Assembly: GCA_009702465.1 (NCBI GenBank)
Contig: WLHY01000022.1
Location: forward strand, 1-10,571
DNA: 10,571 nt
Direction: 5' to 3'
Source of the DNA: Actinomycetota bacterium
GTDB lineage: Bacteria; Actinomycetota; Actinomycetes; Nanopelagicales; Nanopelagicaceae
The notes beneath the pieces were generated by a model, which was given only the letters and a program-made list of their open reading frames with translations, made no database searches and was not told the DNA's origin. The first letter of the stretch is position 1; each line of letters begins with the position of its first letter. Below, in pieces: positions 850 through 2,444 of this stretch. Position numbers and translations under genes: made by a program.

Positions 850-1281
850 ATGTTCTTAGGTACTCATGAACCAAAGCTTGATGAGAAGGGTCGTTTGATC
901 CTGCCCGCCCGATTCCGCGATGAGTTATCAGAGGGTTTAGTAATTACTAAGGGTCAAGAGCGCTGTCTCTATGTATTTCCGGCAAATGAGTTCTCTCTAA
1001 TTACTGAGCGTTTGCGGCAAGCACCAGTCACTGAGAAAAAATCACGAGATTACTTACGTGTGATGTTTGCCGGTGCTCATGATGAGGTTCCAGATAATCA
1101 AGGTCGAGTCACTATTCCATCAGCTCTTCGTACCTACGCCTCACTTGAAAAAAATTGTGTAGTTATTGGTGCTAACACCAGATTAGAGATTTGGGATTCA
1201 ACAACTTGGAACGCCTACTTATCAGATCGTGAAAAAACTTTCGCAGATGTATCTGAGGAGGTACTACCCGGACTGTTCTAG
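850..1281 (+). CDS. mraZ: Transcriptional regulator MraZ
   Basis: A 143-residue protein, the normal family length. It contains the two tandem SpoVT/AbrB-like half domains with the two family signatures: DEKGR followed by LILPARFR (residues 11-22), and DNQGR followed by VTIPSALR (residues 82-94). These DxxxR loops form the DNA-binding surface of the ring-shaped oligomer. The start is supported by the canonical N-terminus [11 protein letters not shown] and by the strong ribosome-binding site. MraZ is known to bind repeats upstream of its own gene and to repress the dcw operon, and a matching phased array lies 38-102 bases upstream. Unlike the rest of the operon, it is separated from the next gene by a 209-base structured spacer. 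That spacer's outer stem begins on the last base of the mraZ TAG, so a ribosome terminating on mraZ would cover it. Confidence 0.96.
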
Positions 1282-1490
1282 ATATCAATTTCGGCCACCG
1301 CCACTCACTAAAGATTCGCGGCGCCACTTCCCCGGTGCCGCGCATAACTTTAAAGAGTTCGACTCCGTCGGCCTGATCTAGCGGATTTATTCGCCAGATC
1401 TTTCAAGCCACCTAGTGGCGGTGACCAAAGTTGATATCAAATCCTTAAAAAGTAAGTAAATACAGATGTTCTAGATGAAAGGGGAAGTTA
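1281..1490 (+). ncRNA. Structured cis-regulatory leader of rsmH (mraW RNA motif candidate) with anti-Shine-Dalgarno loop
   Basis: Outer stem P1 pairs 1281-1305 with 1414-1438: 22 Watson-Crick pairs, one G-U (1289/1430) and two C-A mismatches (1292/1427, 1295/1424). Inside, hairpin P2 pairs 1317-1325 with 1334-1342 (9 bp, one G-U) and closes the 8-base loop ACTTCCCC at 1326-1333. Hairpin P4 pairs 1375-1379 with 1396-1400 and 1381-1385 with 1390-1394 around one A-C mismatch, with loop TTTA. Between them are two mutually exclusive 4-bp hairpins (1355-1365 or 1360-1370). The P2 loop is the exact reverse complement of 1481-1488, the core of the rsmH ribosome-binding site, predicting a pseudoknot that blocks translation. 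The folded block is 83/158 G+C by hand count, whereas the following linker 1439-1490 is 15/52. An 'mraW RNA motif' has been described at this position in Actinobacteria; identity with that family is inferred from position, not matched. No U run follows P1, so it is not a terminator. Confidence 0.75.
1477..1484 (+). promoter_or_regulatory. Ribosome-binding site of rsmH, complementary to the upstream hairpin loop
   Basis: GAAAGGGG ends 6 bases before the ATG at 1491 and decides that start. Bases 1481-1488 (GGGGAAGT) pair perfectly with loop 1326-1333 of the leader, so access to this site may be switched. Confidence 0.82.
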
Positions 1491-2444
1491 ATGAATGCAG
1501 AGTTAAATCATGTACCAGTTGCATTAGAGCGTTGCATTCAGTTATTAACTCCGGTAATTGAACAAAATCCAAATGCAGTAGTAATTGATTGCACCCTTGG
1601 CGCAGGTGGTCATGCCAAGCTTTTACTAGAAAGATTTAGCGATCTGCACTTAATTGGAATCGATCGAGATCAATCAGCGCTAGATCTTGCAGCTGCCAAC
1701 CTATCGTCATATGCAGATCGCATAACCTTGCTTCACTCTACTTATGATCAAATCGAGGAAATACTTTCAAGCCTAAATATTGCAAAGGTAGATGGCATTC
1801 TCTTTGATCTAGGCGTTTCATCAATGCAGCTGGATAATGCAGCACGCGGCTTTGCCTACTCACAAGAGGCTTCACTAGATATGCGTATGGATCAAAGCGC
1901 ACCGCTAACTGCGGCGATAATTCTAAATACCTACTCGCATGGTCAATTAGCCAAGTTGTTGCAGCGATTTGGTGAAGAGAAATTTGCTAGCAAGATTGCC
2001 GAAAACATTATCAAAGCCAGAACTTCTGGAAATCTAAACACAACTAAAGATCTAGCCGAGATTGTGAAGGATTCAATTCCAGCCCCAGCTCGGCGCACAG
2101 GTGGAAATCCAGCCAAGCGCACCTTTCAGGCACTACGCATTGAGGTCAATCAAGAGTTATCAATCTTAGAGAGTGCAATTCCAGCAGCACTTAACTCCTT
2201 AAAGGTTGGTGGCCGAATAGTGGTTATGTCATACCAATCTTTAGAGGATCGGATAATCAAAAGGTTATTTGCCGAAGCAACCCAAGGATCTACCCCACTT
2301 GGTTTACCAATGGATCTACCTAACTCTGCTGCAAAATTTAAATTACTTTTGAATGGCAGTGAAGGTGCTGATTTAGCTGAACAGGATTTAAATCCGCGCT
2401 CTCAATCTATGCGTTTGCGCGCTATCGAGCGGGTGGCTGCATAA
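1491..2444 (+). CDS. rsmH: 16S rRNA (cytosine1402-N4)-methyltransferase
   Basis: A 317-residue protein (family usually about 310-330) that transfers a methyl group from S-adenosylmethionine to N4 of C1402 in the 16S decoding centre. It begins with HVPVALERCI (7-16), as the family does. The SAM-binding loop is VIDCTLGAGGHAKLL (31-45), followed by GIDRDQSAL (56-64). DGILFDLGVSSMQLD (101-115), RGFAYS, LDMRMD (129-134), NPAKRTFQALRIEVNQEL (206-223) and SYQSLEDRIIKRLF (247-260) are the diagnostic motifs. The C-terminal NPRSQSMRLRAIER is intact. The start is fixed by the strong upstream ribosome-binding site, the only good one until mraY. The stop TAA shares its last base with the ATG of the next gene (TAATG), so the genes are translationally coupled. 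The upstream RNA element may control its initiation. Confidence 0.97.
   Translation: MNAELNHVPVALERCIQLLTPVIEQNPNAVVIDCTLGAGGHAKLLLERFSDLHLIGIDRDQSALDLAAANLSSYADRITLLHSTYDQIEEILSSLNIAKVDGILFDLGVSSMQLDNAARGFAYSQEASLDMRMDQSAPLTAAIILNTYSHGQLAKLLQRFGEEKFASKIAENIIKARTSGNLNTTKDLAEIVKDSIPAPARRTGGNPAKRTFQALRIEVNQELSILESAIPAALNSLKVGGRIVVMSYQSLEDRIIKRLFAEATQGSTPLGLPMDLPNSAAKFKLLLNGSEGADLAEQDLNPRSQSMRLRAIERVAA

Follow-up and report, generated by a model that had tools for sequence, protein, structure and literature searches.

The spacer between mraZ and rsmH in the window, the 10,571-nt stretch of Nanopelagicaceae DNA analysed here, carries a structured RNA (1281–1438) that is, on the covariance-model comparisons given below, a divergent mraW RNA (RF01746 type) and not a new element. 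Its apical CUUCCCC loop is complementary to the ribosome binding site of rsmH, and comparison among relatives shows this putative loop partner at the rsmH ribosome binding site to be retained family-wide. Our favoured reading, to which we assign a probability of about two in three, is that a CUUCCCC–GGGGRRG pseudoknot, in competition with the 30S subunit, reduces translation of rsmH and perhaps that of the coupled division genes too. The elements concerned are as follows.

850–1281, plus strand: mraZ (TIGR00242, 136.8 bits; ORF), whose stop codon adjoins the P1 helix
1281–1305, plus strand: 5′ arm of the P1 helix, core GGCCACCGCC (inverted repeat; covarying helix in relatives)
1317–1325, plus strand: 5′ arm of the P2 hairpin (fold; stem covariation in relatives)
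1326–1333, plus strand: P2 loop, A-CUUCCCC, in which CUUCCCC (1327–1333) is invariant and the proposed partner of the ribosome binding site, and the first base varies in relatives
1334–1342, plus strand: 3′ arm of the P2 hairpin (fold; stem covariation in relatives)
1364–1369, plus strand: UCCGUC strand in the segment from P2 to P1 (alignments of Nanopelagicaceae show strong conservation)
1375–1400, plus strand: extra arm P3 (fold; genus alignment)
1414–1438, plus strand: 3′ arm of the P1 helix, core GGCGGUGACC (fold; inverted repeat; covarying helix in relatives)
1439–1480, plus strand: AT-rich linker from P1 to the target (sequence)
1481–1487, plus strand: putative target GGGGAAG in the rsmH ribosome binding site, complement of 1327–1333; T at 1488 would give an eighth pair
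1491–2444, plus strand: rsmH (mraW; TIGR00006, 301.5 bits; ORF), the presumed regulated gene

The two arms of P1 constitute a 25-nt inverted repeat that is 88% complementary, and the fold of 1270–1520 has a z-score of −4.2. RNAalifold on 46 aligned spacers of the family returns P1 and P2, and for 22 of the 28 pairs at least one sequence has both partners changed. In a core set of 35 sequences, none of them from the window's genus, 18 of the 28 P1/P2 pairs are changed on both sides and 97.4% of the cells are paired; no shuffle out of 500 reaches the observed value in any of five measures, and sliding the alignment by 1–3 columns drops the paired cells to 29–57%. This covariation supports a genuine RNA structure. 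The wobbles place it on the mRNA strand, where they amount to 54 G-U versus 8 A-C cells, and a palindrome acting at the DNA level was rejected, as the wobbles favour one strand. The P1 core could be located in 105 of 109 family spacers. Of the genus alignment's 22 rows, only the window and its near relatives L003 and L004 carry the P3 arm. In alignment A4, which is without all rows of the window's genus, L084–L086 and L143, P1 contains a mismatch (columns 14/113) that is C-A in most rows and U-U in L073, L076 and L080; many other families, by eye, have U-A paired there. The mraZ–rsmH spacers of L088 (offsets 87 and 145) and L117 (offsets 43 and 89) each hold a tandem pair of CUUCCCC hairpins, which suggests that function resides in the loop.

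At gathering scores no Rfam family is matched in the window. RF01746 reaches 18.9 bits (E 0.19 over 361 bases) versus a gathering score of 50 bits, which we treated as a curated score threshold and not as a structural feature, and its alignment passes through the same CUUCCCC loop. A permissive Rfam scan of 1200–1560 gave four matches, of which mraW RNA is the sole cis-regulatory one; a known riboswitch, the SAM type included, was found neither at gathering score in the window nor among these four. Across the class, RF01746 is matched at E ≤ 0.001 in 187 of 296 genomes, with 81 above the cut-off and the window's own genome absent; ten genomes of the family besides the window's attain this E-value, and among the matches listed these score at most 40.6 bits, none above the cut-off. 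A covariance model, R1, comprising 35 sequences from other genera of the family and none from the window's genus, gives the window 59.6 bits (E 7.8e-12). Of 43 loci from other families, R1 also matches 37 at the spacer loop with E ≤ 0.0022 (27 of 32 families), among them 28 of the 34 that MraZ alone had fetched; L088, L102, L104, L110, L111 and L121 gave no spacer-loop match. It is because R1 scores the window high and matches the spacer loops of other families that we assign the element to divergent mraW RNA. In a phylum-wide search R1 picks up 4 of 296 genomes, the window's own included, and misses motif-bearing genomes such as G063, which it matches through the locus L037, so that this count carries no weight.

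In agreement with this assignment, the element lies where mraW RNA lies, between the mraZ and rsmH genes and before the rsmH start; the apical CUUCCCC hairpin loop is present at 1326–1333, and so is the outer helix with the GGCC../..GGGACC layout, for which covariation was seen within the family and other families were compared by eye. With the mraW RNA motif described in 2010 by Weinberg et al. (PMC2864571) the element shares the mraZ–rsmH position, a long P1, an apical CUUCCCC hairpin and occurrence in actinobacteria. The window copy differs in its sub-cut-off score, its extra arm P3 and its A+T-rich lower P1, and in belonging to a family whose loop complements the rsmH site. The function of mraW RNA was still called unknown in 2017 in the accessible portion of PMC5640933, and PMC9569102 lists it as a putative regulator of peptidoglycan synthesis. 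Among the matches listed in the open literature, as far as their accessible text extends, there is neither a report of loop-to-rsmH pairing nor a mechanism for mraW RNA.

The original prediction was that the entire loop at 1326–1333 (ACTTCCCC) is the perfect complement of 1481–1488 (GGGGAAGT), that the match ends at the loop boundaries and that a linker of 42 bases (1439–1480) separates P1 from the target. The match is indeed listed as a perfect 8-nt inverted repeat with copies 147 nt apart, the loop ACUUCCCC and the site GGGGAAGU (1481–1488) being exact complements; the fold closes exactly an 8-nt loop with P2, and the linker measures 42 nt and is AT-rich. Within the window, GGGGAAGT/ACTTCCCC occurs in these two places only, and since 8 of 200 shuffles (mean 0.25) give at least two occurrences, the match is suggestive but not overwhelming from the window alone. 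In 0.89 Mb of the window's own, incomplete genome GGGGAAGTNNATG has a single occurrence. Judged by comparison with relatives, the match is far beyond chance for seven pairs (1327–1333 with 1481–1487), not for eight: a complement to the first loop base follows GGGGRRG in only 15 of 97 spacers (6 A-T, 6 C-G and 3 T-A), and the eighth pair was dropped as a signal.

For this comparison 136 family loci were gathered; removal of L150, L164, L177 and L191 (no rsmH) and of L182 (no start) left 131 loci and 109 distinct spacers. The relatives are mostly metagenome-assembled actinobacteria, including Candidatus Nanopelagicaceae and Planktophila, and the two locus collections overlap. The loop, scored as present when the letters CTTCCCC occur in the spacer (the surrounding hairpin was tabulated for the family and printed for others), is found in all 109 family spacers and in all 64 from 32 other families. 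As it is invariant in all 173 spacers, covariation or compensatory change between loop and site cannot be observed. At rsmH, GGGGRRG, giving seven consecutive pairs with G-U allowed, lies at most 22 nt before the start in 97 of the 109 family spacers, 41 of the 97 sites being the full Watson–Crick complement GGGGAAG, and eight further spacers offer six pairs. By genome the complement is present in 49 of 56 and by genus in 15 of 17, the two genera without it being represented by one genome each; since the family rows are related, the genus count is the safer figure.

The choice of rsmH start favours G-rich Shine–Dalgarno motifs, GGGG included (one candidate start in 54 of the family spacers, two in 36 and three to five in 19). 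Under a background start choice that likewise favours Shine–Dalgarno motifs, with the same motif scores and its own start rule, two genomes of the family show GGGGRRG before 6 of 329 starts; under plain start choice the figure is 4 of 366 (twenty 20-kb stretches of two family genomes). The background genomes, two of the family and three others, were sampled as stretches only. Fisher's test of rsmH versus background gives p ∼2e-75, which is only indicative as the rows are related. Two rsmH starts look wrong, that of L192 (scored as a miss) and that of L182 (left out); at each locus GGGGGAG precedes some other or later start codon, so that their correction would raise the count. The same test at other genes of the family gave 2 of 92 distinct sites for ftsL, 0 of 90 for ftsI, 0 of 23 for murF, 3 of 22 for mraY and 0 of 21 for murD, with murE contributing one site only to this control. 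Position is equally restricted: GGGGRRG occurs at −30 to −1 in 97 of 109 spacers (shuffle 7.4) and between the loop and −30 in none of 109 (shuffle 3.7). Of 95 sites, 64 have their first G at −10 or −9, which places RRG at −6 to −3, and the conservation of RRG within the spacer before the start codon probably exceeds the need of the Shine–Dalgarno interaction alone.

Complementarity to the loop is not unique to rsmH, as 67 of 90 distinct mraZ sites of the family possess it too. At these sites a T stands before GGGG in 33 of 67 cases, as in an MraZ box, the complement is spread over −22 to −10, and the window's own mraZ site, GGGGGTC, offers no full pairing; these features speak against the mraZ site as the main loop target. 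Its complementarity may reflect overlap with MraZ boxes or a second loop target. Upstream of mraZ in the window are three GTGG boxes 20 bp apart (767, 787 and 807) with more G runs between them, and the array at 767–810 resembles the MraZ operator. Such boxes, which are GTGGG-like, and their array before mraZ would favour an account in which GGGG is kept at rsmH through binding of the MraZ repressor to DNA. The base before GGGG at rsmH is, however, T in only 12 of 95 sites and A in 67, and with T in 33 of the 67 mraZ sites the MraZ-box reading fits mraZ better than rsmH; as an account of the rsmH site it is extremely improbable.

The energetics of the favoured pseudoknot were computed in silico for the 97 spacers and indicate that the loop is accessible and its pairing with the site energetically plausible. 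The predicted cost of opening is 0.0–0.12 kcal/mol for the loop and 1.8 kcal/mol (median) for the site, and pairing contributes −10.7 kcal/mol, leaving a median net energy of −9.1 kcal/mol without a pseudoknot penalty, the same value as for the window. The loop lies 70–154 nt upstream of the site; the distance from P1 to the site spans ∼21–104 nt (median 48; 94 relatives, P1 base placed by rule), and ∼21 nt or more is judged enough to reach back. Median pairing at rsmH is −12.2 kcal/mol for the loop and −12.5 kcal/mol for the 16S tail, which is slightly better at most sites, the loop being stronger at 25 of 107. With the two so nearly equal, they would compete. Among 18 background starts whose 16S pairing is at least the rsmH median, two match the rsmH median in loop pairing. 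The 16S tail itself is ordinary in five of six genomes, and the window's own incomplete genome gave no match. The near equality of the energies also implies that the site need not be locked, which would suit a real pairing that aids expression, either by holding the leader for a factor or ribosome to open or by protecting the site from decay. Masking of a ribosome binding site is, however, well established as usually repressive, and we regard an aid to expression as decidedly unlikely.

Outside Nanopelagicaceae, for which 64 loci were used (30 fetched by RF01746, which favours the loop, and 34 by MraZ), full pairing is found at 4 of 64 rsmH sites, no more than in shuffles (4 versus 4.5); in three other-family genomes seven pairs are available at 2 of 269 background starts. 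At the level of at least six pairs there is a milder excess, 16 of 64 rsmH sites versus 13 of 269 background starts, with 9 of 20 in one family (f4) and 7 of 44 elsewhere. The best duplex position falls at −20 to +19 in 29 of these 64, a weak result. As the loop is kept class-wide while the sites mismatch, it must also do something else. It could be conserved throughout the class for a different partner, be it a protein or trans-acting RNAs, with the rsmH match in Nanopelagicaceae a side effect of some other constraint on the ribosome binding site. That CTTCCCC is present in every other-family spacer while 60 of the 64 rsmH sites lack full pairing speaks for such a partner, as do the conservation of P1 and, within the family, of internal strands, and the two hairpins in each of L088 and L117. 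It leaves unexplained, however, the 97 of 109 sites at rsmH versus 6 of 329 other starts, and the conserved purines running into the spacer before the start codon; we hold it to be rather unlikely.

The target might also be read by a separate C-rich sRNA of the 6C/B11 kind, binding GGGGRRG at rsmH, and at mraZ, in trans, with the hairpin loop unrelated. According to the accessible text of PMC10470900, the B11 sRNA represses through C-rich loops acting on ribosome binding sites of this kind, which is also a precedent for the pairing we favour, and the target stands on both mraZ and rsmH in the family; 6C (RF01066) was, however, found in 0 of 37 Nanopelagicaceae genomes versus 16 of 23 others, under strict filters that lose weak matches, and we consider this explanation very improbable, though a C-rich RNA other than 6C may exist. 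The absence of 6C from the 37 genomes may represent a lineage loss of a trans-acting C-rich sRNA. The 6C/B11 RNAs likewise present a C-rich hairpin loop to a G-rich ribosome binding site, but B11, as described in the same text, is its own transcript acting in trans, whereas the window's hairpin is on the same mRNA as its putative target.

In the mechanism we favour, the mraZ–rsmH mRNA would fold at 1281–1438 into a long P1 carrying P2 with an exposed CUUCCCC loop, which in Nanopelagicaceae would pair with GGGG(A/G)(A/G)G at the rsmH ribosome binding site. The resulting loop-to-single-strand pseudoknot would have one variable loop base as its short crossing strand, seven pairs and no base between the new helix and P2; such an arrangement, a single unpaired base 5′ of a seven-pair helix that abuts the stem, is that of a classical H-type pseudoknot. 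Loop and 16S tail would compete for the same purines and initiation at rsmH would be lowered, as would that of ftsL and ftsI, each with a start that overlaps the stop of the gene ahead. We infer that the pairing would form in the cell and be repressive, and that the downstream genes would follow. Open reading frames place ftsL and then an FtsI-type gene downstream of rsmH with overlapping ends (the end of rsmH at 2444 is overlapped by the start of ftsL, and ftsI begins at 2830, before ftsL ends at 2833); further ORFs of the window we take, from gene order, to be murE, murF, mraY and murD. SAM, a protein, temperature or translation of mraZ may act as the trigger, for which the UCCGUC strand and the C-A/U-U mismatch of P1 are candidate contact points. 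The pseudoknot switch of the original prediction is sustained as to a structured RNA on the mRNA strand, a loop complement kept family-wide at the ribosome binding site and a plausible energy; it was amended in that the element is not new but a divergent mraW RNA, that the eighth pair is not conserved and that the loop is kept where rsmH sites mismatch.

A scan of 600–2000 found no intrinsic terminator at the P2/P1 hairpin; its sole terminator-like sites are at 672–692, where a hairpin with a T run lies between mraZ and an SCO2097-like gene (291–647; 70 bits, below its cut-off of 110). A mobile repeat was rejected, as the 209-base spacer matches only itself in its own genome, and mimicry of the 16S region modified by RsmH (CACCGCC, CCGUC in P1) was set aside, these strands not being common to other families by eye.

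The masking logic proposed here is that of those RNA thermometers and translational riboswitches in which, as is well established, the Shine–Dalgarno sequence is concealed by pairing. Unlike in those systems, the masking strand in the window would be a pre-formed hairpin loop situated behind another gene, and no ligand or sensor is known for it. The UpsM leader of the Rhodobacter sphaeroides dcw cluster, as far as described in the accessible part of PMC5089854, is likewise an RNA in the leader of a like gene cluster; compared by description, it differs in lying before mraZ, in having a terminator, in yielding an sRNA thought to act in trans and in its lineage. In Corynebacterium glutamicum, an RNAseq start for mraW at 2,266,932 falls inside the motif (2,267,021 to 2,266,916, minus strand) in the accessible data of PMC3890552, downstream of the would-be loop, so that by position such transcripts would lack the loop, which speaks against the favoured reading; in C. 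diphtheriae, the excerpt of PMC5784534 places the motif upstream of the reported transcript start.

A wider proposal, which we offer tentatively and think somewhat doubtful, is that mraW RNA may be a class-wide clamp against ribosome binding sites, whose invariant CUUCCCC mimics the 16S tail and would bind G-rich starts in the same operon or in trans; in Nanopelagicaceae it would have become hard-wired to the rsmH start, an RNA-level control that would distinguish the division genes from mraZ, the gene of their own repressor. The divergent copies show where the Rfam model misses members, and a loop partner kept across one family would make mraW RNA a testable translation switch for a conserved division and cell-wall cluster.
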